A stretch of DNA of 64,000 bases from Ptiloglossa arizonensis (taxonomy: Eukaryota > Arthropoda > Insecta > Hymenoptera > Colletidae). Made by a program: the position numbers and the translations under genes. Location of the stretch: the NCBI RefSeq assembly GCF_051014685.1, contig NC_135050.1:2046001-2110000 (forward strand). The letters run 5' to 3'. A model generated the notes under the pieces. The model worked only from the letters and a program-made list of their open reading frames with translations. It was not told the DNA's origin and did not search any database. Below are positions 23,258 through 63,571 of the stretch, one piece after another (the first letter of the stretch is position 1; each line of letters starts with the position of its first letter).

Positions 23258-23286
23258 TTTTTAATTTCTAAGTACTTTCAATCATT

Positions 23287-25796: not shown

Positions 25797-25851
<55 letters not shown>

Positions 25852-29299: not shown

Positions 29300-32200
29300 C
29301 GAAACGGAGAAACGGAGAAACGGAGAAACGATGAAACGAAGGAAGAAACGGAGAAACGAAGAATGAAACGGAGAAATGAAGAAAGAAACGAAGAAACGAA
29401 GAAAGAAACGGAGAAACGAAGAAAGAAACGGAGAAACGAACAAAGAAACGGAGAAACGAAGAAAGAAACGGAGAAACGGAGTAATAAATGGAGAAACGAA
29501 GAAATAAACGAAAAAACGAAGAAAGAAACGGAGAAACGAACAAAGAAACGGAGAAAGAAACGGAGAATCGGAGAAATAAATGGAGAAACGAAGAAATAAA
29601 CCGAGAAACGGAGAAAGGAACAAAGAAACCGAGAAACGGAGAAAGAAACGGAGAAATGAAGAAAGAAACGGAGAAACGAAGAAATAAACCGAGAAACGGA
29701 GAAAGAAACGGAGAAACGAACAAAGAAACGGAGAAACGAACAAAGAAACGGAGAAACGAACAAAGAAACGGAGAAACGAAGAAAGAAACGGAGAAATGGA
29801 GAAATAAATGGAGAAACGAAGAAATAAACGGAGAAACGAAGAAATAAACGGAGAAACGGAGAAACGAACAACGAAACGTAGAAACGAAGAAAGAGACGGA
29901 GAAGCGGAGAAATAAATGGAGAAGCGAAGAAATAAACGGAGAAACGAAGAAATAAACGGAGAAACGAAGAAAGAAACGGAGAAACGAAGAAAGAAACGGA
30001 GATACGAAGAAAGAAACGGAGAATCGGAGAAAGAAACGGAGAAACGAACAAAGAAACGGAGAAACGAAGAAAGAAACGGAGAAACGGAGAAATAAATGGA
30101 GAAACGAAGAAATAAACGGAGTAACGAAGAAAGAAACGGAGAAACGAAGAAAGAAACGGAGAAACGAAGAAAGAAACGGAGAAACGAAGAAAGAAACGGA
30201 GAAACGAAGAAAGAAACGGAGAAACGAAGAAAGAAACGGAGAAACGAACAAAGAAACGGAGAAACGAAGACAGAAACGGAGAAACGAACAAAGAAACGGA
30301 GAAACGAACAAAGAAACGGAGAAACGAACAAAGAAACGGAGAAACGAACAAAGAAACGGAGAAACGAACAAAGAAACGGAGAAACGAAGACAGAAACGGA
30401 GAAACGAACAAAGAAACGGAGAAACGAACAAAGAAACGGAGAAACGAACAAAGAAATGGAGAAACGAACAACGAAACGTAGAAACGAAGAAAGAAACGGA
30501 GAAACGAAGATATAAACGGAGAAACGAAGAAAGAAACCGAGAAACGAACAAAGAAACGGAGAAACGAACAAAGAAACGGAGAAACGAACAAAGAAACGGA
30601 GAAACGAACAAAGAAACGGAGAAACGAAGACAGAAACGGAGAAACGAACAAAGAAACGGAGAAACGAACAAAGAAACGGAGAAACGAACAACGAAACGGA
30701 GAAACGAACAAAGAAACGGAGAAACGAACAAAGAAACGGAGAAACGAACAAAGAAACGGAGAAACGAAGAAGGAAACGAAGAGACGGAGAAATAAATGGA
30801 GAAACGTAGAAAGAAACGGAGAAACGAAGAAAGAAACGGAGAAACGAAGAAAGAAACGGAGAAACGAAGAAAGGAACTGAGAAACGAAGAAAGAAACGGA
30901 GAAACGAACAAAGAAACGGAGAAACGAAGAAAGAAACGGAGAAACGAACAAAGAAACGGAGAAACGAACAAAGAAACGGAGAAACGAACAAAGAAACGGA
31001 GAAACGAACAACGAAACGTAGAAACGAAGAAAGAAACGGAGAAACGAAGAAAGAAACGGAGAAACGAAGAAAGAAACGGAGAAACGAAGAAAGAAACGGA
31101 GAAACGAAGAAAGAAACGGAGAAACGAACAAAGAAACGGAGAAACGAAGAATGAAACGCAGAGACGGAGAAATAAATGGAGAAACGAAGAAATAAACGGA
31201 GAAACGAACAAAGAAACGGAGAAACGAAGAAAGAAACGGAGAAACGAAGAAAGAAACGGAGAAACGAAGAAAGAAACGGAGAAACGAACAAAGAAACGGA
31301 GAAACGAACAAAGAAACGGAGAAACGAACAAAGAAACGGAGAAACGAACAAAGAAACGGAGAAACGAACAAAGAAACGGAGAAACGAACAAAGAAACGGA
31401 GAAACGAACAAAGAAACGGAGAAACGAACAATGAAACGGAGATACGAAGAAGGAAACGAAGAGACGGAGAAATAAATGGAGAAACGAAGAAAGAAACGGA
31501 GAAACGAAGAAAGAAACGGAGAAACGAACAAAGAAACGGAGAATCGGAGAAATAAATGGTGAAACGAAGAAATAAACCGAGAAACGGAGAAAGAAACGGA
31601 GAAACGAACAAAGAAACGGAGAAACGAAGAAAGAAACGGAGAAACGAGGAAAGAAACGGAGAAACGAACAAAGAAACGGAGAAACGGAGAAATAAATGAA
31701 GAAACGAAGAAATAAACGGAGAAACGAAGAAAGAAACGGAGAAACGAAGATAGAAACGGAGAAACGAGGAGAGAAACGGAGAAACGAAGAAAGAAACGGA
31801 GAAACGAAGAAAGAAACGGAGAAACGAAGAAAGAAACGGAGAAACGAAGAAAGAAACTTAGAAACGAAGAAAGAATCGGAGAAACGAGGAAAGAAACGGA
31901 GAAACGAACAAAGAAACGGAGAAACGGAGAAATAAATGAAGAAACGAAGAAATAAACGGAGAAACGAAGAAAGAAACGGAGAAACGAAGATAGAAACGGA
32001 GAAACGAGGAGAGAAACGGAGAAACGAAGAAAGAAACGGAGAAACGAAGAAAGAAACGGAGAAACGAAGAAAGAAACGGAGAAACGAAGAAAGAAACTTA
32101 GAAACGAAGAAAGAATCGGAGAAACGAAGAAAGAAACGGAGAAACGAAGAAAGAAACTGAGAAACGAAGAAAGAAACGGAGTAACGAGGAAAGAAACTGA

Positions 32201-34657
32201 GAAACGAAGAAAGAAACGGAGAATCGGAGAAATAAATGGAGAAACGAAGAAATAAACCGAGAAACGGCGAAAGAAACGGAGAAACGAACAAAGAAACGGA
32301 GAAACGAACAAAGAAACGGAGAAACGAACAAAGAAACGGAGAAACGAACAAAGAAACGGAGAAACGAACAAAGAAACGGAGAAACGAAGAAATAAACGGA
32401 GAAACGAAGAAAGAAACGAAGAAAGAAACGGAAAAACGAAGAAAGAAACGGAGAAACGAAGAAAGAAACGGAGAAACGAAGAAAGAAACGGACAATCGGA
32501 GAAATAAATGGAGAAACGAAGAAATAAACCGAGAAACGGAGAAAAGAACAAAAAAACGGGGAAACGAAGAAAGAAACGGAGAAACGAACAAAGAAACGGA
32601 GAAACGAACAAAGAAACGGAGAAACGAACAAAGAAACGGAGAAACGAGGAAGGAAACGGAGAAACGGAGAAATAAATGGAGAAACGAAGAACTAAACGGA
32701 GAAACGAACAAAGAAATGGAGAAACGAAGAAAGAAATGGAGAAATAAATGGAGAAACGAAGAAATAAACGGAGAAACGAACAAAGAAACGGAGAAACGAA
32801 GAAAGAAACGGAGAAACGAAGAAATAATCCGAGAAACGGAGAAAGAAACGGAGAAACGAAGAAAGAAACGGAGAAACGAAGATAGAAACGGTGAAACGAA
32901 CAAAGAAACGGAGAAAAGAGCAAAGAAACGGAGAAACGAACAAAGAAACGGAGAAACGAACAAAGAAACGTTTCTCCGTTTCTCCGTTTCTCGGTTTCCC
33001 CGTTTCTCCGTTTCTCGGTTTCTCCGTTTCTCGGTTTCTCCGTTTCTCTGTTTCTCGGTTTCTCCGATTCTCGGTTTCTCCGTTTCTCCGTTTCTCGGTT
33101 TCTCCGTTTCTCCGTTTCACGGTTTCTCCGTTTCTCCGTTTCTCGGTTTCTCCGTTTCTCTGTTTCTCCGTTTCTCCGTTTCTCGGTTTCTCCGATTCTC
33201 GGTTTCTCCGTTTCTCCGTTTCTCGGTTTCTCCGTTTCTCCGTTTCTCGGTTTCTCCGTTTCTCCGTTTCTCGGTTTTTCCGTTTTTCCGTTTCTCGGTT
33301 TTTCCGTTTCTCCGTCTCTCGGTTTCTCCGTTTCTCGGTTTCTCCGTTTCTCCGTTTCTTGGTTTTTCCGTTTCTCCGTTTCTCCGTTTCACCGTTTTTT
33401 GTTCGTTTCTCCATTTATTTCTCCGATTCTCCGTTTCTTTCTTCGTTTCTCCGTTTCTTTCTTCGTTTCTTCGTTTCTTTCTTTGTTTCTCCGTTTCTTT
33501 CATCGTTTCTCCGTTTCTTTCTTCGTTCCTCCGTTTCTTTCTTCGATTTTCCGTTTATTTCTTCGTTTCTCCATTTATTTCTCCGTTTCTCCGTTTCTTT
33601 GTTCGTTTCTCCGTTTCTTTGTTCCTTTCTCCGTTTCTTTGGACGTTTCTCCGTTTCTTTGGACGTTTCTCCGTTTCTTCGTTTCTTTGTTCGTTTCTCC
33701 GTTTCTTCCGTCGTTTCTCCATTTCTTTCTTCGTTTCTCCGTTTCTTTGTTCGTTTCTCCGTTTCTTTCCTCGTTTCTCCGCTTCTTCCTTCGTTTCTTC
33801 GTTTCTTTCTTCGTTTCTCCGTTTCTTTCTTCGTTTCTCCGTTTGTTTCATCGTTTCTCCATTTATTTCTCCGTTTCTCCGTTTCTTTCTTCGTTTCTCC
33901 GTTTCTTTCTTCGTTTCTCCGTTTCTCCATTTATTTCTTCGTTTTTCCATTTATTTCTCCGTTTCTCCGTTTCTTCCATCGTTTCTCCGTTGCTTTGTTC
34001 GTTTCTCCATTTCTTTGTTCGTTTCCCCATTTATTTCTCCGTTTCGCCGTTTCTTTCTTCGTTTCTCCGTTTCTTTGTTCGTTTCTCCGTTTCTTTGTTC
34101 GTTTCTCCGTTTCTTTGTTCGTTTCTTCGATTCTTTGTTCGTTTCTCCGTTTCTTTCGTCGTTTCTCCATGTCTTTCTTCGTTTCTCCGTTTCTTTGTTC
34201 GTTTCTCCGTTTGTTTCCTCGTTTCTCCGTTTCTTTCTTCGTTTCTTCGTTTCTTTCTTCGTTTCTCCGTTTCTTTCTTCGTTTCTCCGTTTGTTTCATC
34301 GTTTCTCCATTTATTTCTCCGTTTCTCCGTTTCTTTCCTCGTTTCTCCGTTTCTTTCTTCGTCGTCTGTTTATTTCTTCGTTTCTCCATTTATTTCTTCG
34401 TTTCTCCATTTATTTCTCCGTTTCTCCGTTTCTTTCTTCGTTTCTACGTTTCTTTCTTCGATTCTCCGTTTATTTCTTCGTTTCTCCATTTATTTCTTCG
34501 TTTCTCTGTTTCTTTCTTCGTTTCTCCGTTTCTTTCTTCGTTTCTCCGTTTCTTTCTTCGTTTCTCCGTTTCTTCCTTCGTTCCTTCGTTTCTCCGATTC
34601 TCCGTTTCTCCGTTTCTCCGTTTCTTCCTTTCTCCGTTTCTCCGTTTCTCCGTTTCG
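29300..34657. repeat. Array B: 5.4-kb short tandem repeat with strand switch
   Basis: The purine-rich plus strand (GAAACGGA with GAAACGAAGAAA or GAAACGAACAAA, 20-bp period) fills 29300-32970. At 32970/32971, in GAAACGTTTC, the array flips and the pyrimidine strand continues to 34657. Recurrent GAAATAAATGGAGAAACGAA blocks punctuate it. A 240-bp higher-order duplication lies at 31681-32139. Confidence 0.95.
31681..32139. repeat. 240-bp higher-order tandem duplication in array B
   Basis: 31681-31920 and 31921-32139 are the same by eye through rare variants such as AACTTA, AATCGG and GAGGAGAGAAACGG, and differ first near 32128. Shared rare variants mean a recent unequal exchange. Confidence 0.85.
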
Positions 34658-34872
34658 ATTAAATGATTATAATAGTTATAATTTGTATTATAAATCATTT
34701 GAGCTATAGTTAAATTATACACTAATACTCTAAATACATATTTAATATATTTTTTAATCTCTTTAGCCTCCAGAGGAATTTTACTTATACTATTTACTGT
34801 ATATAATAATTTACACGGAATCGGAAATAAATCTAATTATTTATTTATAATAATTATTTTTTATTCACTTAT
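34658..34872 (+). pseudogene. ND2: ND2(+) fragment after array B
   Basis: A 215-bp copy with the same start (array edge, CGATTAAATGATTATAATAG) and same end (TTCACTTAT) as the fragment after array A. Confidence 0.8.
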
Positions 34873-35653
34873 TTTACCAAAAATTTCGATTCTTCATGTA
34901 TTAATCAAATGTTAAATTGATATATCTCATAGACAATTATTACTTTCCGTGTCTTAAAACTTTAAGCAACATCTCTTTACCTTGAAGTTCGATCAAAATC
35001 AATTGCTAGAGGCGAATCGATCATGTTTAATGCATAAATAAGATGCACATTGTTCGATCAATATAGGGAACATGCGTAAATGTTAATAACAATCGCTGAA
35101 ATGAACAAACATTCACTGAAACCGTTCGCCTTCGCAGACTTCGCAATATCTTGACATTTATTTATCATAATTATTAACAACCGTCGTTGGACCGTAGATT
35201 AAACAATTTTTGACAATGTTTCGGTATAAAAAGCCATCAGTTTCTTGAAATATTTGGTTAGATCGAACAAATACGATCGAAGAAGCCGTGGGATAAAATA
35301 AATGAATATTTCTCTACATATCGGAATTATAGTTTCTATGTATGCAAATATATTCTGTACCCGCAATTACAAATCCCTGTACCGTGGTAATTACATGGGT
35401 TTCCATCTATTGGAGAAAGGGTTAAACTACACTTAAGGGGTGAAAACACCTGGCGGAGAAACGCTCAAGTTTGTCGAGGAATTGTTCTAATTTCCACAAA
35501 TAGATGGCGCGACAAGTTCAATTTACCGACATTAGAGATAAGTATTTCCATTTGTATGATATTCCCCACCGTGCGATAAAATAAATAAATACTTTTGTAC
35601 AAACTTTTGAATGTTTCATCTTTCGAATAAATATAAAATTAAACCTTCCACGG
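34873..35653. repeat. Spacer satellite between arrays B and C
   Basis: 781 bp holding one copy of the spacer unit and its tail, including CGGAGAAACG near 35454 and the inverted CCATCTATT / AATAGATGG pair. Nothing coding is seen. Confidence 0.85.
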
Positions 35654-36381
35654 TAAATTTTATTCTTGAATTTATTAATGTTTCTGGGACGATTTATTTT
35701 CGTATAAAGAGTGCTATAGGTGGGAAATTTGTGTACATAATAATTATTGAGTAAAAAATAATTTTTCTTTTATTAGAGGTTCATGTATTAAATAAGGAAG
35801 AAGAGTTAATCTTTATTATTTTAAATATAAAAATTAAAATTAAAGAAATTATTGAATATAAAATGAAGTATGTAAAAAATGTATTTTTGTTAATTATTAA
35901 TAAAATAACTATAATAGATGTTTGTATAACAGATGAATATCCTATAATTATTATGATTGATTTTTTTGTATAAGCAAATGATAGGGGCAATAATTACATT
36001 AATTAGGCAAATAAAATAATTTTCATTATTAAATTTTAATATGAGTTCTATAATAATTATGGGGATTAATTTTATTAACGTTATTATGCAGAATAGATTA
36101 ATTCAATTTCATGAATAAATTAAAGAAATGAATCGAACATTTAAAGAGTACATCCCAATTTTTAAGATAAGTGAAAAAAAAGTAATTATTATAAATAAAT
36201 AATTAGATTTATTTCCGATTCTGTGTAAATTATTATATATAGTAAATAGTATAAATAAAATTCTTCTGGAGGCTAAAGAGATTAAAAAATATATTAAATA
36301 TGTATTTAGAGTATTAGTGTCTAATTTAACTATAGATCAAATGATTTATAATAGAAATTATAAATATTATAATCATTTAAT
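35654..36381 (-). pseudogene. ND2: ND2(-) fragment before array C
   Basis: 728 bp, with the same two edges as the copy before array B and only scattered base differences. The frame is broken in both standard and mitochondrial code. Confidence 0.85.
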
Positions 36382-39300
36382 CGAAACGGAGAAACGGAGA
36401 AACGGAGAAACGATGAAACGAAGGAAGACACGGAGAAACGAAGAAAGAAACGGAGAAATAAAGAAAGAAACGAAGAAACGAAGGAAGAAACGGAGAAACG
36501 AAGAAATAAACCGAGAAACGGAGAAAGAAACGGAGAAGCGAAGAAAGAAACAGAGAAACGAACAAAGAAACGCACAAACGAAGAATGAAACGGAGAAAGG
36601 AAGAAATAAACGGAGAAACGAAGAAAGAAACGGAGAAACGTTTCTCCGTTTCTCCGTTTCTCGGTTTCTCCGTTTCTCGGTTTCTCCGTTTCTCGGTTTC
36701 TCCGTTTCTCCGTTTCTCCGTTTCTCCGTTTCTCCGTTTCTCGGTTTCTCCGATTCTCGCTCTCTCCGTTTCTCCGTTTCTCGGTTTCTCGGTTTCTCCG
36801 TTTCTCGGTTTCTCCGATTCTCCGTTTCTCGGTTTATCCGTTTCTCCGTTTCTCCGTTTCTCCGTTTCTCCGTTTCTCCGTTTTTTGTTCGTTTCTCCAT
36901 TTATTTCTCCGATTCTCCGTTTCTTTCTTCGTTTATCCGTTTCTTTCTTCGTTTCTACGTTTCTTTCTTTGCTTCTCCGTTTCTTTCATCGTTTCTCCGT
37001 TTCTTTCTTCGTTTCTCTGTTTCTTTCTTCGTTTCTCCGTTTATTTCTTCGTTTCTCCATTTATTTCTTCGTTTTTCCATTTATTTCTCCGTTTCTCCGT
37101 TTCTTTCTTCGTTTCTCTGTTTCTTTGTTCGTTTCTCCATTTCTTTGTTCGTTTCCCCATTTATTTCCCCGTTTCGCCGTTTCTTTCTTCGTTTCTCCGT
37201 TTCTTTGTTCCTTTCTCCGTTTCTTTGTTCGCTTCTCCGTTTCTTTGTTCGTTTCTTCGTTTCTTTGTTCGTTTCTCCGTTTCTTTCGTCGTTTCTCCAT
37301 TTCTTTCTTCGTTTCTCCGTTTCTTTGTTCATTTCTCCGTTTCTTCCCTCGTTTCTCCGTTTCTTTCTTCGTTTCTTCGTTTCTTTCTTCGTTTCTCCGT
37401 TTCTTTCTTCGTTTCTCCGTTTGTTTCATCGTTTCTCCATTTATTTCTCCGTTTCTCCGTTTCTTTCTTCGTTTCTCCGTTGCTTTCTTCGTTTCTCCGT
37501 TTATTTCTTCGTTTCTCCATTTATTTCATCGTTTCTCTGTTTCTTTCTTCGTTTCTCCGTTTCTTTCTCCGTTTCTCCGTTTCTATCTTCGTATCTCCGT
37601 TTCTTCCTTCGTTTCTTCGTTTCTCCGTTTCTCCGTTTCTCCGTTTCTCCGTTTCTCCGTTTCTCCGTTTCCCGGTTTCTCTGTTTCTCCGATTCTCCGT
37701 TTCTCCGTTTCTCGTTTTCTCCATTTCTCCTTTTCTCCGGTTCTCCGTTTCTCGGTGTCTCCGTTTCTCCGTTTCTCGGTTTCTCGGTTTCTCGGTTTCT
37801 CCGTTTCTCGGTTTCTCGGTTTCTCCGTTTCTCCGTTTCTCCGTTTCTCCGTTTCTCCGTTTCTCCGTTTCTCCGCTTGTCGGTTTCCCCGTTTCTCCCT
37901 TTCTCGGTTTCTCCGTTTCTCGGTTTCTCCGTTTCTCGGTTTCTCCGTTTCTCCGATTCTCGGTTTCTCCGTTTCTCCGTTTCCCGGTTTCTCTGTTTCT
38001 CCATTTCTCCGTTCCTCGTTTTCTCCATTTCTCCTTTTCTCCGTTTCTCCGTTTCTCGGTGTCTCCGTCTCTCCGTTTCTCGGTTTCTCGGTTTCTCCGT
38101 TTCTCCGTTTCTCCGTTTCTCGGTTTCCCCGTTTCTCCGTTTCTCGGTTTCTCCGATTCTCCGTTTCTCCGTTTCTTGGATTCTCCGTTTCTCCGTTTCT
38201 TTCTTCGTTTCTCCATTTCTTTGTTCGTTTCCCCATTTACTTCTCCGTTTCGCCGTTTCTTTCTTCGTTTCTCCGTTTCTTTGTTCGTTTCTCCGTTTCT
38301 TTGTTCGTTTCTTCGTTTCTTTGTTCGTTTCTCCGTTTCTTTTGTCGTTTCTCCATTTCTTTCTTCGTTTCTCCGTTTCATTCTTCGTTTCTCCGTTTCT
38401 TTCTTCGTTTCTCCGTTTATTTCTTCGTTTCTCCATTTATTTCTTCGTTTTTCCATTTATTTCTCCGTTTCTCCGTTTCTTTCTTCGTTTCTCCGTTTCT
38501 TTGTTCGTTTCTCCATTTCTTTGTTCGTTTCCCCATTTATTTCTCCGTTTCGCTGTTTCTTTCTTCGTTTCTCCGTTTCTTTGTTCCTTTCTCCGTTTCT
38601 TTGTTCGTTTCTCCGTTTCTTTGTTCGTTTCTTCGTTTCTTTGTTCGTTTCTCCGTTTCTTTCGTCGTTTCTCCATTTCTTTCTTCGTTTCCACATTTAT
38701 TTCTCCGTTTCGCCGTTTCTTTCTTCGTTTCTCCGTTTCTTTGTTCCTTCCTCCGTTTCTTTGTTCGTTTCTCCGTTTCTTTGTTCGTTTCTTCGTTTCT
38801 TTGTTCGTTTCTCCGTTTCTTTCGTCGTTTCTCCATTTCTTTCTTCGTTTCTCCGTTTCTTTGTTCATTTCTCCGTTTCTTCCCTCGTTTCTCCGTTTCT
38901 TTCTTCGTTTCTCCGTTTCTTTCTTCGTTTCTCCGTTTCTTTCTTCGTTTCTCCGTTTGTTTCAACGTTTCTCCATTTATTTCTCCGTTTCTCCGTTTCT
39001 TTCTTCGTTTCTCCGTTTCTTTGTTCGTTTCTCCGTTTCTTTCTTCGTTCCTCCGTTTCTTACTTCGATTCTCCGTTTATTTCTTCGTTTCTCCATTTAT
39101 TTCTCCGTTTCTCCGTTTCTTTGTTCGTTTCTCCGTTTCTTTGTTCATTTCTCCGTTTCTTTCTTCGTTTCTCCGTTTCTTTCTTCGTTTCTCCATTTCT
39201 TTCTTCGTTTCTCCGTTTCATTCTTCGTTTCTCCATTTATTTCTCCGCTGCTCCGTTTCTTTGTTCGTTTCTCCGTTTCTTCGTTCGTTTCTCCATTTAT

Positions 39301-40200
39301 TTCTCCGTGTCTTCGTTTCTTTGTTCGTTTCTCCGTTTCTTCGTTCGTTTCTCCGTTTCTTTCTTCGTTTCTTCATTTCTTTCTTCGTTTCTCCGTTTCT
39401 TTCTTCGTTTCTCCGATTGTTTCATCGTTTCTCCATTTATTTCTCCGTTTCTCCGTTTCTTTCTTCGTTTCTCCGTTTCTTTCTTCGTTTCTCCGTTTAT
39501 TTCTTCGTTTCTCCATTTATTTCTTCGTTTTTCCATTTATTTCTCCGTTTCTCCGTTTCTTTCTTCGTTTCTCCGTTTCTTTGTTCGTTTCTCCATTTTT
39601 TTGTTCGTTTCCACATTTATTTCTCCGTTTCGCCGTTTCTTTCTTCGTTTCTCCATTTCTTTGTTCCTTTCTCCGTTTCTTTGTTCGTTTCTTCGTTGCT
39701 TTGTTCGTTTCTCTGTTTCTTTCGTCGTTTCTCCATTTGTTTCTTCGTTTCTCCGTTTCTTTGTTCGTTTCTCCGTTTCTTTGTTCGTTTCTTCGTTTCT
39801 TTGTTCGTTTCTCCGTTTCTTTCGTCGTTTCTCCATTTCTTTGTTCGTTTCTCCGTTTCTTTGTTCGTTTCTCCGTTTCTATCCTCGTTTCTCCTTTTCT
39901 TTCTTCGTTTCTTCGTTTCTTTCTTCGTTTCTCCGTTTCTTTCTTCGTTTCTCCGTTTCTTGCATCGTTTCTCCATTTATTTCTCCGTTTCTCCGTCTCT
40001 TTCTTCGTTTCTCCGTTTCTTTCTTCGTTTCTCCGTTTCTGTCTTCGTTTCTCCTTTTCTTCCTTCGTTTCTTCGTTTCTCCGATTCTCCGTTTCTCCGT
40101 TTCTCCGATTCTCCGTTTCTCCGTTTCTCCGTTTCTCCGTTTCTCCGTTTCTCCGTTTCTCCGTTTCTCCGTTTCTCCGTTTCTCCGTTTCTCCGTTTCG
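36382..40200. repeat. Array C: 3.8-kb short tandem repeat with strand switch
   Basis: The purine half is short (36382-36640). The flip at 36640/36641 is again GAAACGTTTC, and pyrimidine sequence continues to 40200. Near 37610-38200 it contains 8-mer-rich stretches with rare variants (CTCGTTTTCTCCATTTCTCC, CTCGGTGTCTCCG) that recur in array D. Confidence 0.95.
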
Positions 40201-40415
40201 ATTAAGTGATTATAATAGATATAATTTCTATTATAAATCATTTGAGCTACAGTTAAATTATACACTAATACTCTAAATACATATTTAATATATTTTTTAC
40301 TCTCTTTAGCCTCCAGAAGAATTTTGTTTATACTATTTACTGTATATAATAATTTACACAGAATCGGAAATAAATCTAATTATTTATTTCTAATAATTAT
40401 TTTTTATTCACTTAT
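40201..40415 (+). pseudogene. ND2: ND2(+) fragment after array C
   Basis: 215 bp, with the same edges as the fragments after arrays A, B and D. Confidence 0.8.
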
Positions 40416-47539: not shown

Positions 47540-47754
47540 ATTAAATGATTATAATAGATATAATTTCTATTATAAATCATTTGAGCTATAGTTAAATTAT
47601 ACACTAATACTCTAAATACATATTTAATATATTTTTTAATCTCTTTAGCCTCCAGAAGAATTTTATTTATACTATTTATGGTATATAATAACTTACACAG
47701 AATCGGAAATAAATCTAATTATTAATTTTTATTAATTATTTTTTATTCACTTAT
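47540..47754 (+). pseudogene. ND2: ND2(+) fragment after array D
   Basis: 215 bp with the usual start and end points. Confidence 0.8.
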
Positions 47755-50233: not shown

Positions 50234-53200
50234 CGAAACGGAGAAACGGAGAAACGGAGAAACGATGAAACGAAGGAAGAAACGGAGAAACGAAGAAAGA
50301 GACGGAGAAATGATGAAAGAAACGAAGAAACGAAGAAAGAAACGGAGAAACGAAGAAATAAACCGAGAAACGGAGAGAGAAACGGAGAAATGAAGAAAGA
50401 AACATAGAAGCGAACAAAGAAACGCAGAAACGAAGAAAGAAACGGAGAAACGAAGAATGAAACGGAGAAACGAAGAAAGAAACGGAGAAACGAAGAAAGA
50501 AACGGAAAAACGAAGAAAGAAACGGAGAAACGGAGAAAGAAACGGAGTAACGAAGATAGAAACGAAGAAAGAGACGGAGAATCGGAGAAAGAAACGGAGA
50601 AACGAAGAAACGATGAAAGAAACGGAGAAACGAAGAAAGAAACAGAGAAACGAAGAGAGAAGCGGAGAAACGAAGAAAGAAACTGAGAAACGAAGAAAGA
50701 AACGGAGAATCGGAGAAACAAATGGAGAAACGAAGAAATAAACGGGCAACGAAGAAAGAAACGGTGAAACGAAGCAAGAAACGGTGAAACGAAGAAAGAA
50801 ACGGAGTAACGATGAAAGAAACGAAGCAACGAAGAAAGAAACGGAGAATCGGAGAAATAAATGGAGAAAGGAAGAAATAAACCGAGAAACGGAGAAAGAA
50901 ACGGAGAAAGAAACGGAGAAAGAAACGGAGAAAGAAACGGAGAAACGAACAAAGAAACGGAGAAACGAACAAAGAAACGGAGAAACGAAGAAAGAAACGG
51001 AGAAACGAAGAAAGAAACGGAGAAACGGAGAAATAAATGGAGAAACGAAGAAATAAACCGAGAAACGGAGAAAGAAACGGAGAAACGAACAAAGAAACGG
51101 AGAAACGAACAAAGAAACGGAGAAACGAACAAAGAAACGGAGAAACGGAGAAATAAATGGAGAGACGAAGAAATAAACGGAGAAACGAAGAAAGAAACGG
51201 AGAAACGAAGAAAGAAAGGGGGAAACGAAGAAAGAAACGGAGAAACGAAGAAAGAAACGGAGGAACGAAGAAAGAAACGAAGAAACGAAGAAAGAAACGG
51301 AGAAACGAACAAAGAAACCGACAAGCGAACAAAGAAACGGAGAAGCGAAGAAAGAAACGGAGACACGAACAAAGAAACGGAGAAACGAACAAAGAAACGG
51401 AGAAACGAAGAAAGAAACGGAGAAACGGAGAAATAAATGGAGAAACGAAGAAATAAACCGAGGAACGGAGAAAGAAACGGAGAAACGAACAAAGAAACGG
51501 AGAAACGAACAAAGAAACGGAGAAACGAACAAAGAAACGGAGAAACGAACAAAGAAACGGAGAAACGAACAAAGAAACGGAGAAACGAACAAAGAAACGG
51601 AGAAACGAACAAAGAAACGGAGAAACGAACAAAGAAACGGAGAAACGAACAAAGAAACGGAGAAACGAACAAAGAAACGGAGGAACGAAGAAAGAAACCG
51701 ACAAGCGAACAAAGAAACGGAGAAGCGAAGAAAGAAACGGAGACACGAACAAAGAAACGGAGAAACGAACAAAGAAACGGAGAAACGAACAAAGAAACGG
51801 AGAAACGAACAAAGAAACGGAGAAACGAACAAAGAAACGGAGAAACGAAGAAAGAAACTGAGAAACGAAGAAAGAAACGGAGGAACGAAGAAAGAAACGA
51901 AGAAACGAAGAAAGAAACGGAGAAACGAACAAAGAAACCGACAAGCGAACAAAGAAACGGAGAAGCGAAGAAAGAAACGGAGACACGAACAAAGAAACGG
52001 AGAAACGAACAAAGAAACGGAGAAACGAAGAAAGAAACGGAGAAACGGAGAAATAAATGGAGAAACGAAGAAATAAACCGAGAAACGGAGAAAGAAACGG
52101 AGAAACGAACAAAGAAACGGAGAAACGAACAAAGAAACGGAGAAACGAACAAAGAAACGGAGAAACGAACAAAGAAACGGAGAAACGAACAAAGAAACGG
52201 AGAAACGAACAAAGAAACGGAGAAACGAACAAAGAAACGGAGAAACGAACAAAGAAACGGAGAAACGAACAAAGAAACGGAGAAGCGAAGAAAGAAACGG
52301 AGAATCGGAGAAAAAAATGCAGAAACGAAGAAATAAACCGAGAAACGGAGAAAGAAACGAAGAAAGAAACGGTGAAACGAAGAAAGAAACAGAGAAACGA
52401 AGAGAGAAACGGAGAAACGAAGAAAGAAACTGAGAAACGAAGAAAGAAACGGAGAATCGGAGAAATAAATGGAGAAACGAAGAAATAAACGGGAAACGAA
52501 GAAAGAAACGGAGTAACGAAGAAAGAAACGAAGCAACGAAGAAAGAAACGGAGAATCGGAGAAAAAAATGGAGAAACGAAGAAATAAACCGAGAAACGGA
52601 GAAAGAAACGGAGAAAGAAACGGAGAAAGAAACGGGGAAACGAACAAAGAAACGGAGAAACGAACAAAGAAACGGAGAAACGAAGAAAGAAATGGAGAAA
52701 CGAACAAAGAAACGGAGAAACGAAGAAAGAAACGGAGAAACGGAGAAATAAATGGAGAAACGAAGAAATAAACCGAGAAACGGAGAAAGAAACGGAGAAA
52801 CGAACAAAGAAACGGAGAAACGAACAAAGAAACGGAGAAACCAACAAAGAAACGGAGAAACGAACAAAGAAACGGAGAAACGAACTAAGAAACGGAGAAA
52901 CGAACAAAGAAACGGAGAAACGGAGAAATAAATGGGAAACGAAGAAATAAACGGAGAAACGAAGAAAGAAACGGAGAAACGAAGAAAGAGACGGGGAAAC
53001 GAAGAAAGAATCGGAGAAACGAAGAAAGAAACGGAGGAACGAAGAAAGAAGCGAAGAAAGAAACGGAGAAACGAACAAAGAAACGGACAAACGAACAAAG
53101 AAACGGAGAAACGAAGAAAGAAACGGAGAAACGAAGAAAGAAACGGAGAAACGGAGAAAGAAACGGAGAAACGAACAAAGAAACGGAGAAACGGAGAAAT

Positions 53201-54606
53201 AAATGGAGAAACGAAGAAATAAACGGAGAAACGAAGAAAGAAACGGAGAAACGAAGAAAGAAACAGAGAAACGAAGAGAGAAACGGAGAAACGAAGAAAG
53301 AAACTGAGAAACGAAGAAAGAAACGGAGAATCGGAGAAATAAATGGAGAAACGAAGAAATAAACGGGAAGCGGAGAAAGAAACGGAGAAACGAAGAAAGA
53401 AACGGAGAAACGAAGAAAGAAACGGAGTAACGAAGAAAGAAACGAAGAAACGAAGAAAGAGACGGAGAATCGGAGAAAGAAACGGAGAAACGAAGGAACG
53501 ATGAAAGAAACGGAGAAACGGAGAAATAAATGGAGAAACGAAGAAATAAACCGAGAAACGGAGAAACGGAGAAACCGAGAAACGGAGAAACCGAGAAACG
53601 GAGAAACGGAGAAACCGAGAAACGGAGAAACGGAGAAACCGAGAAACGGAAAAACGGAAAAACAGAGAAACCGAGAAACGGAGAAACTGAGAAACTGAGA
53701 AACAGAGAAACCGAGAAACGAAGAAAGAAACGGAGAAACGAAGAATGAAACGGAGAAACGAAGAAAGAAACGGAGAAACGGAGAAATAAATGGAGAAACG
53801 AAGAAATAAACCGAGAAACGGAGAAAGAAACGGAGAAACGAACAAAGAAACGGAGAAACGAACAAAGAAACGGAGAAACGAAGAAAGAAACGGAGAAACG
53901 GAGAAATAAATGGAGAAACGAAGAAATAAACCGAGAAACGGAGAAAGAAACGGAGAAACGAACAAAGAAACGGAGAAACGAACAAAGAAACGGAGAAACG
54001 AACAAAGAAACGGAGAAACGAACAAAGAAACGGAGAAACGAACAAAGAAACGGAGAAACGAACAAAGAAACGGAGAAACGAACAAAAAAACGGAGAAACG
54101 AACAAAGAAACGGAGAAACGAACAAAGAAACGGAGGAACGAAGAAAGAAACGGTGAAACGAAGAAAGAAACAGAGAAACGAAGAGAGAAACGGAGAAACG
54201 AAGAAAGAAACGGAGTAACGAAGAAAGAAACGAAGCAACGAAGAAAGAAACGGAGAATCGGAGAAAAAAATGGAGAAACGAAGAAATAAACCGAGAAACG
54301 GAGAAAGAAACGGGGAAACGAACAAAGAAACGGAGAAACGAACAAAGAAACGGAGAAACGAACAAAGAAACGGAGAAACGAAGAAAGAAATGGAGAAACG
54401 AACAAAGAACCGGAGAAACGAAGAAAGAAACGGAGAAACGAAGAAAGAAACCGACAAGCGAACAAAGAAACTGAGAAACGAAGAAAGAAACGGAGAATCG
54501 GAGAAATAAATGGAGAAACGAAGAAATAAACGGAGAAACGAAGAAACGGAGAAACGAAGGAAGAAACGGAGAAACGAAGAAAGAAACGGAGAAACGAAGA
54601 AATAGA

Positions 54607-54934
54607 CGGAGAAACGGAGAAACGGAGAAACGGAGAAACGGAGAAACGGAGAAACGGAGAAACGGAGAAACGGAGAAACGGAGAAACGGAGAAACGGAGA
54701 AACGGAGAAACGGAGAAACGGAGAAACGGAGAAACGGAGAAACGGAGAAACGGAGAAACGGAGAAACGGAGAAACGGAGAAACGGAGAAACGGAGAAACG
54801 GAGAAACGGAGAAACGGAGAAACGGAGAAACGGAGAAACGGAGAAACGGAGAAACGGAGAAACGGAGAAACGGAGAAACGGAGAAACGGAGAAACGGAGA
54901 AACGGAGAAACGGAGAAACGGAGAAACGGAGAAA
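54607..54934. repeat. Perfect 8-mer tract, purine strand (about 41 units)
   Basis: Uninterrupted GAAACGGA repeats with no substitution seen over 328 bp, 42 bp from the strand switch. Confidence 0.93.
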
Positions 54935-55355
54935 CCGAGAAACGGAGAAACCGTGAAACGGAGAAACCGAGAAACGTTTCTCCGTTTCTTTGTTCGTTTC
55001 TCCGTTTCTTTGTTCGTTTCTGCGTTTCTTTCTTTGTTTCTCCGTTTCATTCTTCGTTTCTCCGTTTATTTCTTCGTTTCTCCATTTATTTCGCCGTTTC
55101 TCCGTTTCTTTGTTCGTTTCTCCGCTTCTTTCTTCGTTTCTCCGTTTCTTTCTTCGTTTCTCCGTTTCTTTCTCCGTTTCTCGGTTTATTTCTTCGTTTC
55201 TGCATTTATTTCTCCGCTTCTCCGTTTCTTTCTTTGTTTCTCCGTTTCTTTGTTCGTTTCTCCGTTTCTTTGTTCGTTTCTCCGTTTCTTTCTTCGTTTC
55301 TCCGTTTCTTTCTTCGTTTCTCCGTTTCTTTCTTCGTTTCTCCGTTTCTTTGTTC

Positions 55356-55957
55356 GTTTCTCCGTTTCTCCGTTTCTCCGTTTCTCCGTTTCTCCGTTTC
55401 TCCGTTTCTCCGTTTCTCCGTTTCTCCGTTTCTCCGTTTCTCCGTTTCTCCGTTTCTCCGTTTCTCCGTTTCTCCGTTTCTCCGTTTCTCCGTTTCTCCG
55501 TTTCTCCGTTTCTCCGTTTCTCCGTTTCTCCGTTTCTCCGTTTCTCCGTTTCTCCGTTTCTCCGTTTCTCCGTTTCTCCGTTTCTCCGTTTCTCCGTTTC
55601 TCCGTTTCTCCGTTTCTCCGTTTCTCCGTTTCTCCGTTTCTCCGTTTCTCCGTTTCTCCGTTTCTCCGTTTCTCCGTTTCTCCGTTTCTCCGTTTCTCCG
55701 TTTCTCCGTTTCTCCGTTTCTCCGTTTCTCCGTTTCTCCGTTTCTCCGTTTCTCCGTTTCTCCGTTTCTCCGTTTCTCCGTTTCTCCGTTTCTCCGTTTC
55801 TCCGTTTCTCCGTTTCTCCGTTTCTCCGTTTCTCCGTTTCTCCGTTTCTCCGTTTCTCCGTTTCTCCGTTTCTCCGTTTCTCCGTTTCTCCGTTTCTCCG
55901 TTTCTCCGTTTCTCCGTTTCTCCGTTTCTCCGTTTCTCCGTTTCTCCGTTTCTCCGT
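55356..55957. repeat. Perfect 8-mer tract, pyrimidine strand (about 75 units)
   Basis: Uninterrupted TCCGTTTC repeats over about 600 bp. Read in any frame it gives the 8-residue repeat FLRFSVSP. The perfection suggests very recent expansion. Confidence 0.93.
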
Positions 55958-56792
55958 CTCTCGGTTTCTGTGATTCTCGGTTTCTCCATTTCTCCGTTTC
56001 TCAGTTTCTCCGGTTCTCCGTTTCTCCGTTTCTCCGTTTCACCGTTTTTTGTTCGTTCCTCCGTTCCTTTCTTCGTTTCTTCGTTTCTTCGTTTCTTTCT
56101 TCGTTTTTCCGTTTCTTTCTTCGTTCCTCCGTTTCTTTCTTCGATTCTCCGTTTATTTCTTCGTTTCTCCATTTATTTCTCCGTGTCTTCGTTTCTTTGT
56201 TCGTTTCTCCGTTTCTTTCTTCGTTTCTTCGTTTCTTTCTTCGTTTCTCCGTTTCTTTCACCGTTACTCCGTTTCTTTGATCGTTTCTCCGTTTCTTTGT
56301 TCGTTTCTCCGTTTCTTTGTTCGTTTCTCCATTTATTTCACCGTGTCTTCGTTTCTTTGTTCGTTTCTCCGTTTCTTTGTTCGTTTCTCCGTTTCTTTGT
56401 TCGTTTCTTCGTTTCTTTGTTCGTTTCTCCGTTTCTTTCATCGTTTCTCCGTTTCTTTGTTCGTTTCTCCGTTTCTTTCTTCGTTTCTTCGTTTCTTTCT
56501 TTGTTTCTCCGTTTCTTTCATCGTTTCTCCGTTTCTTTGTTCGTTTCTCCGTTCCTTTCATCGTTGCTCCGTTTATTTCTTCGTTTTTCCATTTATTTCT
56601 CCGTTTCTCCGTTTCAATCTTCGTTTCTCCGTTTCTTTGCTCGTTTCTCCGTTTCTTTCTCCGTTTCTCGATTTATTTCTTCGTTTCTCCATTTATTTCT
56701 CCGATTCTCCGTTTCTTTCTTCGTTTCTTCGTTTCTATGTTCGTTTCTCCGTTTCTTTCATCGTTTCATCGTTTCTCCGTTTCTCCGTTTCG

Positions 56793-57714
56793 ATTAAACG
56801 ATTATAATATTTATAATTTCTATTATAAATCGTTTGATCTATAATTAAATTAGACACTAATACTCTAAATACATATTTAATATATTTTTTAATCCCTTTA
56901 GCCTCCAGAAGAATTTTATTTATACTATTTACTATATATAATAATATACACCGAATCGGAAATAAATCTAATTATTTATTTATAGTAATTATTTTTTTTT
57001 CACTTATCTTAAAAATTGGGATGTACTCTTTAAATGTTCGGTTCATTTCTTTAATTTATTCATTAAATTGAATTAATCTATTCTTTATAATAACTTTAAT
57101 AAAATTAATCCCTATAATTATTATAGAACTCATATTAAAATTTAATAATGAAATTTATTTTATTTGCCTAATTAATGTAATTATTGCCCCTATCATTTGC
57201 TTAAACAAAAAAATCAATCATAATAATTATAGGATATTCATCTGTCATACAAACATCTATTATAGTTATTTTATTAATAATTAACAAAAATACATTTTTA
57301 ACATATTTCATTTTATATTCAATAATTTCTTTAATTTTAATTTCTATATTTAAAATAATAAAGGTTAACTCTTCTTCCTTATTTAATATATTAACCTCTA
57401 ATAAAAGAAAAATTATTTTATACTCAATAATTATTATGTACACAAATTTCCCACCTATAGCACTCTTTATACTGAAATAAATCGTTCTAGAAACATTAAT
57501 AAATTCAAGAATAAAATTTATACTTTTAATAATTGTATATCGTTTTATAAGATTAATTACATCATGAAAGTATTTAAATATATCCTTCTTATATTTTTTC
57601 CCTTCAATTAAATAAAAAATATATAACAAAATTAACCTTAATTTTCTAAACTATTATCTATTTATAATTTTTTTAATAGTTATATTTATATTTATAATAT
57701 ACTGATTGTACTAA
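56793..57714 (+). pseudogene. ND2: Mitochondrial ND2 pseudogene, 5' truncated by array E
   Basis: In mitochondrial code it reads NTYLMYFLIPLASSSILF, then KIGMYSLNVRFISLIYSLNW (the ND2 K-x-G-x-x-P/S-x-H block in altered form), then MGYSSVMQTSI and YTNFPPIALFILK, and ends at TAA 57712-57714. The start of the gene is missing. A seven-A run at 57208-57214 shifts the frame, and an in-frame TAA at 57613-57615 stops it. In life it is a complex I subunit. It joins COX1 after only 19 bases, without the tRNA cluster usual between these genes. Confidence 0.9.
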
Positions 57715-57733
57715 TTTTTAACATAATTAATAT

Positions 57734-59258
<1,525 letters not shown>

Positions 59259-59263
<5 letters not shown>

Positions 59264-59323
59264 TATGGCAGATTAGTGCATGAATGTAAGATTCATTTAT
59301 AAAATTTAATATTTTTATTAAAA
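59259..59323 (+). tRNA. trnL2: tRNA-Leu(UUR) mitochondrial gene in NUMT
   Basis: CTTAATA-TG-GCAG... with anticodon stem ATGAA / TTCAT around TGTAAGA (anticodon TAA) and 3' acceptor TATTAAA. It sits between COX1 and COX2, the ancestral insect position, and overlaps the COX1 stop codon by five bases. Confidence 0.85.
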
Positions 59324-60007
59324 ATGTCCCATTGAAAAATAATTAATTTCCAAGACCCCAATTCGCCATATGCCGATAATTTAAATCTTTTTCACAACTT
59401 CACAATAATTATAATAATTATAACCTCTTCATTAACTCTAATAATTATATTAGATATTTTTACTAATAAATTTATCAATCGATTTTTACTTAAGAATCAT
59501 CATATTGAAATTGTATGAACTTTACTCCCAATAATAATTTTAGGAGTAATTGCACTTCCTTCTTTAAAAACCCTATATTTTATTGATGAACTATGAATAC
59601 CCGTATACTTAACAATCAAATCAATTGGGCACCAATGATATTGATCCTATGAATACCCAGAATTTAATAATTTAAATTTTGACTCCTATATAGATAAAGA
59701 TTTAAATAATATTTACATTTTTCGTCTCCTAGACGTAGATAATCGAATAATTATTCCATCTAATACACTAATTCGAATATTAACAACATCAAACGACGTA
59801 ATTCACTCTTGAACTGTTCCGTCTTTAGGCTTAAAAATAGACTCAGTACCAGGGCGAATTAACCAAATAAATTTAATTACTAATCGACCTGGAGTATTTT
59901 TCGGACAATGTTCTGAAATCTGCGGAGCTAAACACAGATTTATGCCAATTGTATTGGACAGAACTAATTATTCAAACTTAATTAATTGAATTAACAACCA
60001 AAATTAA
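59324..60007 (+). pseudogene. COX2: Mitochondrial COX2 copy (NUMT), open reading frame intact
   Basis: In code 5 the frame is open for 227 residues, a normal COX2 length, from MSHWKMINFQDPNSPYADNL to TAA at 60005-60007. Two N-terminal membrane helices, [23 protein letters not shown] and the CuA loop [16 protein letters not shown] are present. The Lys at codon 203 replaces an Asn that is almost always found in GANHSFMP. In the standard nuclear code it is broken by many TGA codons, so it cannot be expressed from the nucleus. Listed as a pseudogene because of its nuclear setting. Confidence 0.88.
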
Positions 60008-60044
60008 ATTTTAACCTACTCATATAATATTTAATTAAATCAAA

Positions 60045-60098
60045 TCATTAGATGTCTGACAAAAGAATTGATGTTTTAAATCAAATTATAGTAATAAG
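60045..60098 (+). tRNA. trnK: tRNA-Lys mitochondrial gene, 3' truncated (anticodon TTT)
   Basis: CATTAGA-TG-TCTGAC... with stem TTGAT / ATCAA around GTTTTAA (anticodon TTT). The position after COX2 is ancestral for insects. The 3' acceptor strand is missing: near 60098 the sequence passes into the spacer satellite. This marks the right edge of the NUMT. Confidence 0.7.
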
Positions 60099-62845
60099 TT
60101 ACTTCACTTTTTATTTTAAAACTTTAAGAATCACCTCTTTACTTCGAAGCTCGATCAAAATTAATTTCTATAAGTTCTTAATCATTTGTAATGCATCAAT
60201 AAGATGAACATTGTTCGATTAATATTGGGAACATGCATGAATGTTAGTAAAACTCGCGGAAATGAATAAACATTCACCGAAACTATTCGCCTTCGCAGAT
60301 TTTGCAATATCTTGAAGTTTATTTATCATAATTATTAACAATTGTCGTAGTACCATAGTTTAAATAATTATTAACAATGCCCTAGTATAAATAAAGGCTT
60401 AAAATATCATTTCATCGAAATATTCATTGCTCGCGATGGAATTTTTCGTTGAGATCAAACTGACATTCTCAAGGCTACACGTATCGATGATCGATTCACA
60501 AGCGTTCATCGCTATGATTGTTGTGTCTAGAAAAGCGATTAATTGAATTTCAGCGCTTTTAAATAAAAAATGCAACTACTACGCGTATTGTGTAAATTAT
60601 AAGAATTAAGCAAATGTTAAATTAATGTATTTAATAAACAATTGTTACTTTCCCTGCTATAAAACTTTACGAAACACGTTTTACTTTGAATCTCGATCCA
60701 AATTAATTTCTATGAGGTACTTAATCATTTTCAATGTATAAATAGGATGCACATTGTTCGATTAATATTGGGAACATATATAAATGTTAGTAACAATGGC
60801 GGAAATGAACAAACATTCACCGAAACCTTTCGCCTTCGCAGATTTCGCAATATCATGACGTTTATTTATCATAATTATTAACAACCGTCGTTGGACCGTA
60901 GATTAAACAATTTTTCAGAATGTTCCGGTATAAATAATGGCTATAAAGCCATCAATTTCTTGAAGTATTTGGTTAGATCGAACAAATACAATCGAAGAAA
61001 CCGTGCGATAAAATAAATGAATATTTCTCTACATATCGGAATTATAGTTTGTATGTATGCAAATATATTCTGACCCCGCAATTCCAAATCCCTGTAACGT
61101 GGTAATTACATGGGTTCCCATCTATTGGAGAAAGTGTTAAACTACACTTAAGGGGTGAAAACACCTGGCGGAGAAACGCTCAAGTTTGTCGAGGAATTGT
61201 TCTAATTTCCACAAATAGATGGCGCGACAAGTACAATTTACCGACATTAGAGATAAGTATTTCCATTTGTATGATATTCCCTACCGTGCGATAAAATAAA
61301 TAAATACTTTTGTACAAACTTTTGTATGTTTCATCTTTCGAATAAATGTAAAATTAAACCTTCCACGGTATATTCTAGCCTTCCTTTATACATTTAAAAA
61401 TCGTTAATACCTCGAAATCAAGGCTTCACGCATCGATTATCAACTCACAAGTGTTTATAACGACGATTTTCTATATAGAAAAGCGATTAATCGAATTTCA
61501 GCACTTTTGAGAATAAAATATAACTTCTACGCGTACTGTGTAAAGTATGAAAATTAAATAAATGTTAAATTATTGGACTAATGCACAATTATTACTTTTC
61601 ATGCTTTTAAACTTTACTAAACAAGTTTTTACATTGAATCTCGATCAAAATCAATTTCTATAAGTATAATTATTTATAATGCATAAATAAGATACACATT
61701 GTTCGATTAATATTGAGAACATGCATAAATGTTAGTAACAATCGCTGAAATGAACAAACATTCACCGAAACCATTCGCCCTCGAAGATTTCGCAATATCT
61801 TGATGTTTGTTTATCATAATTATTAACAACCGTCGTAGGATCATACATTAGACAATTATTAACAATGTCCTGGTATAAATAATGCCTTAAAATATCATTT
61901 CGTTGAAATATTCCTTGTTCGCGAAGGAATTTTTCCTTGAGATCCAACTGATATTCTCAAGGCTACACGTATCGATTATCGATTCACAAGTATATATCGC
62001 GGTGATTTTTCTATCTAAAAAAGCGATTAATTGAATTTTGGCACTTTTGTGTAAAAAATACCAATTCTACGCGTATTGTGTAAATTATAAGAATTAAACA
62101 AATGTTAAATTAATGTATCTAATGAACAATTGTTACTTTCCGTGCTTTAAAACTTTACGACACACGTTTTAACGTGGAGTCTCGATCAAAATCAATTTCG
62201 ATAAGCTTCTTAATTAATTGCAATAAGTAAATAAGATACACATTGTTCGAGCAATATAGGGAACATGCGTAAATGTTAATAACAATCGCTGAAATGAACA
62301 AACATTCACTGAAACCGTTCGCCTTCGCAGACTTCGCAATATCTTGACATTTATTTATCATAATTATTAACAACCGTCGTTGGACCGCAGATTAAACAAT
62401 TTTTGACAATGTTTCGGTATAAAAAGCCATCAATTTCTTGAAACATTTGGTTAGATCGAACAAATACGATCGAAGAAGCCGTGGGATAAAATAAATGAAT
62501 ATTTCTCTACATATCGGAATTATAGTTTGTATGTATGCAAATATATACTGACACGCAATTCCAAATCCCTGAAACGTGGTACTTACATGGGTTGCCATCT
62601 ATTGGAGAAAGGGTTAAATTACACTTAAGTGGTGAAAACACCTGGCGGAGAAACGCTCAAGTTTGTCGAGGAATTGTTCTAATTTCCACAAATAGATGGC
62701 GCGACAAGTACAATTTACCGACATTAGAGATAAGTATTTCCATTTGTATGATATTCCCTACCGTGCGATAAAATAAATAAATACTTTTGTACAAACTTTT
62801 GTATGTTTCATCTTTCGAATAAATGTTGATTTAAACCTTCCCCGG
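60099..62845. repeat. Spacer satellite between COX2 NUMT and array F
   Basis: Tandem copies of the unit of about 540 bp start near 60105, 60640, 61583 and 62127, and two copies carry the tail of about 400 bp (61080-61370 and 62560-62840) with CGGAGAAACG and the inverted CCATCTATT / AATAGATGG pair. This is the longest run of the spacer satellite in the window and shows it is a tandem family of its own. Short open frames in it are not believed. Confidence 0.85.
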
Positions 62846-63571
62846 TAAATTTTATTCTTGAATTTATTAATGTTTCAAGGACGATTTATTTCAGTATAAA
62901 GAGTGCAATAGGTGGGAAATTTGTGTACATAATAATTACTGAGTATAAAATAATTTTTCTTTTATTAGAGGTTTATATATTAAATAAGGAAGAAGAGTTA
63001 ATCTTTATTATTTTAAATACAAAAATTAAAATTAAAGAAATTATTGAATATAAAATGAAATATGTTAAAAATCTATTTTTGTTAATTATTACTAAAGTAA
63101 CTATAATAGATGTTTGTATAACAGATGAATATCCTATAATTATTGTGATTGATTTTTTTGTATAAGCAAATGATAGGGGCAATAATTACATTAATTAGGC
63201 AAATAAAATAAATTTCATTATTAAATTTTAATATGAGTTCTATAATAATTATAGGGATTAATTTGATTAAAGTTATTATAAAGAATAGATTAATTCAATT
63301 TAATGAGTAAATTAAAGAAATGAATCGAACATTTAAAGAGTACATCACAATTCTTAAGATAAGTGAAAAAAAAAAAAATTATAAATAAATAATTAGATTT
63401 ATTTCCGATCCTGTGTAAATTATTATATATAGTAAATAGTATAAATAAAATTCTTCTGGAGGCTAAAGAGATTAAAAAATATATTAAATATGTATTTAGA
63501 GTATTAGTGTCTAATTTAAGTATAGATCAAATAATTTATAATAGAAATTATAAATATTATAATCATTTAAT
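62846..63571 (-). pseudogene. ND2: ND2(-) fragment before array F
   Basis: 726 bp with the same inner and outer edges as the four other ND2(-) fragments. Confidence 0.85.

Follow-up and report, generated by a model that had tools for sequence, protein, structure and literature searches.

A 64-kb stretch of the genome of the colletid bee Ptiloglossa arizonensis (assembly GCF_051014685.1, contig NC_135050.1, positions 2,046,001 to 2,110,000), called the window hereafter, carries a tandem series of units in which arrays of short repeats, reversing strand once inside, are flanked by inverted fragments of the mitochondrial gene ND2. We estimate at about 70% the probability that these units form a composite, non-coding satellite, born when a nuclear mitochondrial DNA segment (NUMT) fused with a simple repeat; an inverted duplication would then have taken place inside the repeat, and the product would have come to lie in a satellite and been amplified in tandem. 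Units are lettered A to F from left to right, and their coordinates within the window are reported in Table 1. For positions 12001-21999, the analysis consisted of self-comparison and Tandem Repeats Finder (TRF).

Organisation of the ND2-armed units

Masked self-comparison of the window placed ND2 on the minus strand to the left and on the plus strand to the right in units B, C, D and E (4/4), with one strand switch in each array, and found the left arm and the switch of unit F just before the window ends. All of this had been proposed in a preliminary description of the same DNA. Inverted matches were 200-729 bp long with 88.6-96.4% identity, far beyond chance. Left arms measure about 729 bp, and the right arms of A to D 229 bp each. 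The description had also proposed tandem inverted-repeat units, made of an ND2 arm, a purine array, a pyrimidine array and a second ND2 arm, with a nuclear spacer satellite between successive units. The units and their head-to-tail recurrence were recovered, spacer and arms being found in five intervals, but the symmetry was not, as both halves and arms are unequal. Purine and pyrimidine halves measure respectively 3.67 and 1.69 kb in B, 0.26 and 3.56 kb in C, 1.55 and 3.43 kb in D, and 4.74 and 1.82 kb in E. Arrays B to F each consist of two opposite sub-arrays, an arrangement called a macro-dyad. Array A is a further, one-sided copy, with ND5/ND4 mitochondrial DNA on its left where an ND2 arm is expected.

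The strand switch has the same sequence, AAACGTTT, in all five arrays that possess one, and is in this respect a conserved inversion site; its flanks differ in unit E. None of the words GTTTC, TTTCT and CCGTT was found inside the ten halves read on the purine strand (the 44-bp pyrimidine stub of F was outside the test). These halves hold no reversed stretch, and arrays B to F have a single switch each. The arrays are built of an 8-bp word, GAAACGGA, and a 12-bp word, GAAACGAAGAAA or GAAACGAACAAA, which TRF reports as a 20-bp period. Array E contains two perfect (GAAACGGA)n runs, of 320 and 592 bp, where those of the other halves reach 88 bp at most; they reflect either a recent expansion or a simplification made by the assembly.

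The edges of the arrays point to a common source. In nine of the ten halves, of both orientations, the word AACGAAGGAAGAA is found at a distance of 34-130 bp from the ND2 edge. It is missing from the right half of E, and five of the ten halves hold one additional, deeper copy. Within these halves, CGATGAAACGA is restricted to the five left edges and the right edge of E. The ND2/array joint itself, TTTAATCGAAACGG, occurs in both orientations. Exact copies stand on the left side of four units (B, C, E and F) and on the right side of two (B and E); one ND2 base is changed at the right of C, and one base in A and on both sides of D. As the AACGAAGGAAGAA and CGATGAAACGA edge words are common to both orientations, both array edges most likely descend from one ancestral ND2/array joint.

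On the outer side of the arms, the joint between ND2 and the satellite is at one place in all five left arms; its satellite side is CCACGG in three of them (B, C and D), from which E and F differ by base changes. The right joint is common to the four right arms of A to D, where about 22 bp of unassigned sequence separate ND2 from the satellite. Compared to an uninterrupted copy of the insertion site (~61369-61552), about 180 bp of satellite are missing at the palindrome site. This is the one copy that was seen to run uninterrupted across the left joint, and most of the missing segment (from 61418) is ordinary satellite, also present at 27708, 60469 and 61957. All copies in the window share a single satellite context, except array A, which adjoins other mitochondrial DNA. 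On the right side of E, the return to satellite takes place at another point, situated some tens of bp farther along. Because this re-entry point differs, the right arms of A to D are not simple deletions of the E right arm. Spacers are 91.4-95.4% identical over their last 690 bp (ten pairs), the closest being the neighbours B-C with C-D (95.1%) and D-E with E-F (95.4%), and 90.6-93.9% identical over their first 330 bp in four spacers (E-F left out).

The mitochondrial origin of the arms is best read in the right arm of E, which holds the longest mitochondrial piece: it matches the left arms over their full length, then continues. Its plus-strand frame passes through ND2, with frame breaks, into COX1, with a single internal stop at 58736-58738, and then into COX2, open from 59324 to 60007. 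Pfam matches were obtained for COX1, COX2 and ND5, the latter at 24966-25526 (PF00361, E-value 2.4e-48, Table 5 translation), while the neighbouring ND4-like end (26160-26438), without Pfam match, was named by eye. ND2 was named from the frame leading into COX1 and COX2, and from one insect ND2 match (28% identity, E-value 4.5e-9, 1032 candidates). Among the matches listed (best 120 of 7999), the nearest COX1 was that of Colletes gigas, 83% identical over 99% of the 335-residue query, followed by Hylaeus (81%) and Andrena (79-80%). These mitochondrial genes lie in nuclear DNA, beside satellite, transposons and long terminal repeat (LTR)-like copies, and they have decayed, as seen from the COX1 stop, the ND2 frame breaks and the truncation of ND2 by array and satellite. 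With a single stop in COX1 and none in COX2, the 57731-60007 segment is a NUMT able to confuse barcoding. In one study of a colletid bee, where NUMTs and heteroplasmy were both considered, the latter was preferred (PMC9387454).

Other origins were tried for the arrays. Derivation from the mitochondrial control region was rejected on two grounds: the array borders both ND4 and ND2, which are unrelated positions in mitochondrial DNA, and its G+C content is about 38-48% in array-only kilobases versus 20-31% in mitochondrial ones. Coding arrays were rejected as well: long open reading frames are present on both strands and in several frames, as in stop-poor repeats. No RNA gene was found at Rfam gathering scores or by ARAGORN (bacterial code), and no run of three TTAGG telomere repeats. 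Exact array words gave no match in the viral_contigs and genome_contigs sets, nor did an exact spacer word in viral_contigs; these are viral and prokaryote contigs which may exclude the host genome, so that both results have little weight.

Relationships among the arms

Within a unit, the two arms are 93.8% (B), 93.4% (C), 90.6% (D) and 92.3% (E) identical. Left arms are 92.7-98.7% alike (10 pairs) and the right arms of A to D 92.6-95.6% (6 pairs). The right arm of E is closer to the left arms (92.3-96.5%) than to the right arms of A to D (88.9-92.0%). When long arms were compared, values of 94.1-96.6% were found among left arms, and of 95.1-96.4% between these and the right arm of E.

These figures bear first on whether the inversions were created by the assembly or the library, through wrong joins or reads folded back on themselves. 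Long, low-complexity arrays do give rise to fold-back chimeras and collapsed repeats, and the two perfect 8-mer runs of E could be mis-sized. A fold-back read, however, gives nearly identical arms, whereas own-unit arms differ by 6-9% and measure ~729 versus 229 bp. Being only 90.6-93.8% identical and unequal in length, the arms of a unit are therefore not read-level fold-back artefacts. Moreover, both satellite joints recur in mutually different units, and a solo LTR is present in unit D only. Inversions confined to places where contigs were joined, an outcome that the preliminary description had envisaged against its own proposal, were not seen in the sequence, which contains no N and shows the five identical switches. 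We consider an artefact very unlikely.

A tree was built with all ten arms of the window, the right arm of E being cut to 226 bp and the left arm of D taken without its LTR. It separated the right arms of A, B, C and D from the five left arms and the right arm of E, with support values of 100/99 on 229 columns. The same split was obtained at 97/98 on the first 185 columns, after dropping the last 44 which hold the joint, and at 98/98 with long left arms. Pairing the two arms of one unit was rejected by the approximately unbiased (AU) test for B (p = 0.0004), C (p = 5e-7) and D (p = 0.0002), and not for E (p = 0.06); the shorter alignment gave p values of 0.004, 0.001, 0.0009 and 0.14, respectively. 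Six of the 185 columns were informative: four fit the split between sides, two unite same-side neighbours (C-D right, E-F left), and none unites own-unit arms. The arms share descent without being kept alike: in B, C and D, own-unit arms are not nearest to each other. Unit E has a different build.

In arm-converting palindromes, as found on Y chromosomes, conversion maintains the similarity of the two arms. Here, no privately shared base was found between the arms of any of the four units. Because the right arms of A to D split off together, and no base pairs own-unit arms, these few columns indicate that the right arms of A to D were copied after the inversion, and that the arms do not convert each other. 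The arrays gave a similar picture in raw counts of exact 40-mers shared on the purine strand: 1005 for the pyrimidine halves of C and D, 302 for those of B and C, and 270 for the purine halves of B and E, compared to 135 (B), 2 (C), 77 (D) and 128 (E) between partners of one unit. For all eight halves of B to E, some same-side half of another unit outscores the half's own partner.

Formation of the units and alternative explanations

The composite satellite would have formed in four steps. First, a purine-rich repeat of 8- and 12-bp words (GAAACGGA, GAAACGAAGAAA) would have become attached to a NUMT of ND2-COX1-COX2, close to where ND2 begins. Second, as the shared edges suggest, a break or a stalled fork in the repeat would have folded back and been copied, giving ND2(-), purine, pyrimidine, ND2(+). 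Folding at a self-complementary dinucleotide would leave a switch without visible spacer, any loop being the array itself. Third, this mirror block, with a left arm of ~729 bp and a right arm of 229 bp, would have replaced the ~180 bp of satellite; the joints are observed, and replacement without target-site duplication fits end joining. Fourth, the already inverted block and its spacer would have been multiplied head-to-tail. Support for this step comes from the arm tree, from the joints held in common and from the spacers, whose identities suggest that unequal exchange was probably the means. Arrays would then have grown and shrunk separately in each half. The role of the units, if they have one at all, would be that of passive repeat DNA able to form hairpins.

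Missing satellite at the insertion site also bears on the possibility that the units are a foldback-type mobile element, with long inverted ends of short tandem repeats, which picked up ND2. The inverted halves are indeed made of short tandem repeats, and one such element has seeded a satellite, according to the accessible part of the report (PMC4079207). However, no target-site duplication, the mark of such elements, was found: the two joints differ, and ~180 bp of the target are missing instead. The halves touch each other here, whereas the element Tetris carries a middle domain between its ends, as far as the same text describes it (PMC4079207). Finally, two open reading frames with Pfam transposase matches (22229-23257 and 11023-11742) lie outside the units, those of the units having been scanned in part. 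A mobile element of this kind is extremely improbable.

Several observations weigh against a single origin followed by amplification, or limit what it explains. The shared switch is weak evidence for one origin: it sits at CG, which makes up 2088 of the 2813 self-complementary dinucleotides among 21,722 array bases and is the commonest of them in the repeat. The 40-mer counts, which were not length-corrected and serve as supporting evidence only, include cross-side values above the within-unit ones (243, 206 and 200 between the purine half of E and the pyrimidine halves of C, D and B, respectively). Bootstrap values had not settled in the two short-arm runs, and few columns carry the signal; a tree with the right arm of E among the right arms of A to D was equally likely (difference 0.00, p = 0.44). 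Unit E differs from the others. Its right arm has the left-arm state at the four fixed differences found in 185 columns (4/4), together with a left-type array edge, and its 8-mer block lies directly left of the switch, as opposed to right of it in B to D. Unit E may be the product of a separate fold-back or of a later exchange. Alternatively, it may preserve the parent arrangement, its right arm perhaps simply retaining older states. Finally, the order of the first three steps is inferred, and the evidence consists of one assembled sequence.

Some of these points would be explained if the array were a standing source of inversions, several units having been inverted separately at CG. The switch does lie at the dominant self-complementary dinucleotide, and E, in contrast to B to D, shows left-type states and a left-type edge on each of its sides. 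Furthermore, a 201-base strand across the switch of C folds at -58 kcal/mol, compared to -33.5 (standard deviation 3.1) for shuffled sequences (z = -7.9), but a fold of this strength is expected of any such junction. Since B, C and D share both satellite joints, and the right arms of A to D share fixed differences, one ancestor is simpler, and we regard repeated independent fold-backs as doubtful. It is likewise conceivable, though improbable, that the purine array is a self-inverting element, of which (GAAACGGA)n single-stranded ends fold back at CG and prime the copying of the flank, so that whatever DNA adjoins it, in this case a NUMT, is converted into palindrome arms. If true, such an array would be a route by which macro-dyad satellites arise and are renewed, and unit E would be a second, separate event.

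A last possibility is a pericentromeric structure selected for its large dyad symmetry, as was proposed for Tribolium. The satellite surroundings, the one central switch per array and its identical sequence would agree with it, and the layout resembles the Tribolium madens arrays, as the accessible part of that report presents them (PMC13081366). Yet the symmetry is lost, the halves being up to 14-fold unequal and the arms diverged, and self-comparison of the window detected no copy of unit or spacer left of 21.8 kb; such selection appears quite unlikely. Returning to the composite satellite, its interest lies in how long inverted arrays begin: unique ND2 sequence, flanking the low-complexity array on both sides, provides markers for the order of events. 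Read from these markers, inversion would have come first, then tandem copying, without arm conversion.

Neighbouring features and comparison with known systems

Table 1. Coordinates of the units, their arms and their spacers in the window.
Feature	Position	Strand	Remarks
NUMT of ND5 and ND4 end	24500..26438 (left limit approximate)	-	truncated by array A
Array A	26431..27057	-	pyrimidine strand only; lacks a left ND2 arm and a switch
ND2 right arm of A	27058..27286	+	R type
Spacer A-B	27287..28571	+	~543-bp phase
ND2 left arm of B	28572..29300	-	729 bp; 96.4% to 57520-56792 inverted
Array B, purine half	29301..32970	+	
Strand switch, unit B	32966..32973		AAACGTTT
Array B, pyrimidine half	32969..34656	-	
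ND2 right arm of B	34657..34885	+	R type
Spacer B-C	34886..35653	+	
ND2 left arm of C	35654..36382	-	729 bp
Array C	36383..40199		purine 36383-36640, pyrimidine 36639-40199, switch AAACGTTT at 36636
ND2 right arm of C	40200..40428	+	R type
Spacer C-D	40429..41195	+	
ND2 left arm of D	41196..42567	-	713 bp without solo LTR
Solo LTR-like insert (TG...CA) in D left arm	41881..42535	+	flanked by ATAG on either side; not present in the four remaining left arms
Array D	42568..47538		purine 42568-44112, pyrimidine 44111-47538, switch AAACGTTT at 44108
ND2 right arm of D	47539..47767	+	R type
Spacer D-E	47768..49506	+	cut-down LTR at ~48250-48785
ND2 left arm of E	49507..50234	-	728 bp
Array E	50235..56791		purine 50235-54976, pyrimidine 54975-56791, switch AAACGTTT at 54972
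E right arm, ND2-COX1-COX2	56792..60090 (right limit approximate)	+	left-arm states
Spacer E-F	60094..62845	+	uninterrupted insertion-site copy ~61369-61552
ND2 left arm of F	62846..63572	-	727 bp
Array F	63573..64000		cut by window end; switch AAACGTTT at 63954

The LTR-like sequence is present in three copies without internal part: one at 23634-24282 and the two listed in Table 1. The first two are bordered by ATAG on both sides, and the third has lost its 5' end plus about 110 bp of satellite. A Tc1/mariner-type transposon at 21853-23513 looks recent; its 227-bp inverted ends are 100% identical, and its 342-residue transposase (HTH_Tnp_Tc3_2, DDE_3) is open. Mariner-like stretches were found at 10550-11820 (Transposase_1 match) and 4440-5650 (by eye). 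A 140-bp tandem duplication, 99% identical, lies at 7416-7695, and exon-like stretches were seen by eye at 6420-9200, including a 55-residue piece (9033-9197) without Pfam match.

The preliminary description held that nothing similar had been described. This is half right: reversing satellites, a tandem NUMT and a foldback-seeded satellite are all published, and no NUMT-armed inverted satellite was found among the literature matches listed (title and start of abstract, few subscription journals). The papers cited below are quoted from their accessible parts, and what they are said to lack is limited to these.

The closest layout is that of the Tribolium madens satellites TmSat1 and TmSat2, where arrays of several kb reverse mid-way, mostly as two sub-arrays, at conserved inversion sites; for long inverted satellite arrays of this kind, a role in (peri)centromeric chromatin has been suggested (PMC13081366). 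They differ by being built from a ~110-bp progenitor and 704-bp monomers, as compared to the 8-12 bp repeat found here, by a multi-megabase extent versus five switches in ~38 kb, and in that mitochondrial arms are not mentioned (PMC13081366). The same paper cites satellites in which the unit itself is an inverted repeat, in Tribolium brevicornis, with inverted segments of ~470 bp, and in Trichogramma brassicae, where a 385-bp satellite contains inverted repeats of 80 bp, but these units are far smaller, and no NUMT or microsatellite core is mentioned (PMC13081366).

In the cat Lopez-Numt macrosatellite, mitochondrial DNA was also tandemly multiplied in the nucleus, but as a 7.8 kb NUMT repeated 38-76 times, for which neither inversion nor simple-repeat core is described (PMC4138527). 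Foldback elements, and Tetris of Drosophila virilis, have long inverted halves with internal tandem repeats and can seed a satellite, but Tetris possesses a middle domain and is bordered by target-site duplications of 8-10 bp (PMC4079207); neither was seen here, where the ends are ND2. Finally, in human fold-back inverted duplications, the inverted copy begins at an inverted microhomology of 2-8 bp (13 joints), and one sequenced joint contains a 70-bp mitochondrial insert (PMC3907307). Those, however, are large rearrangements in patients, with a unique spacer and without satellite amplification (PMC3907307). The ingredients of the units described here are each known separately, and their combination is new among the matches listed.

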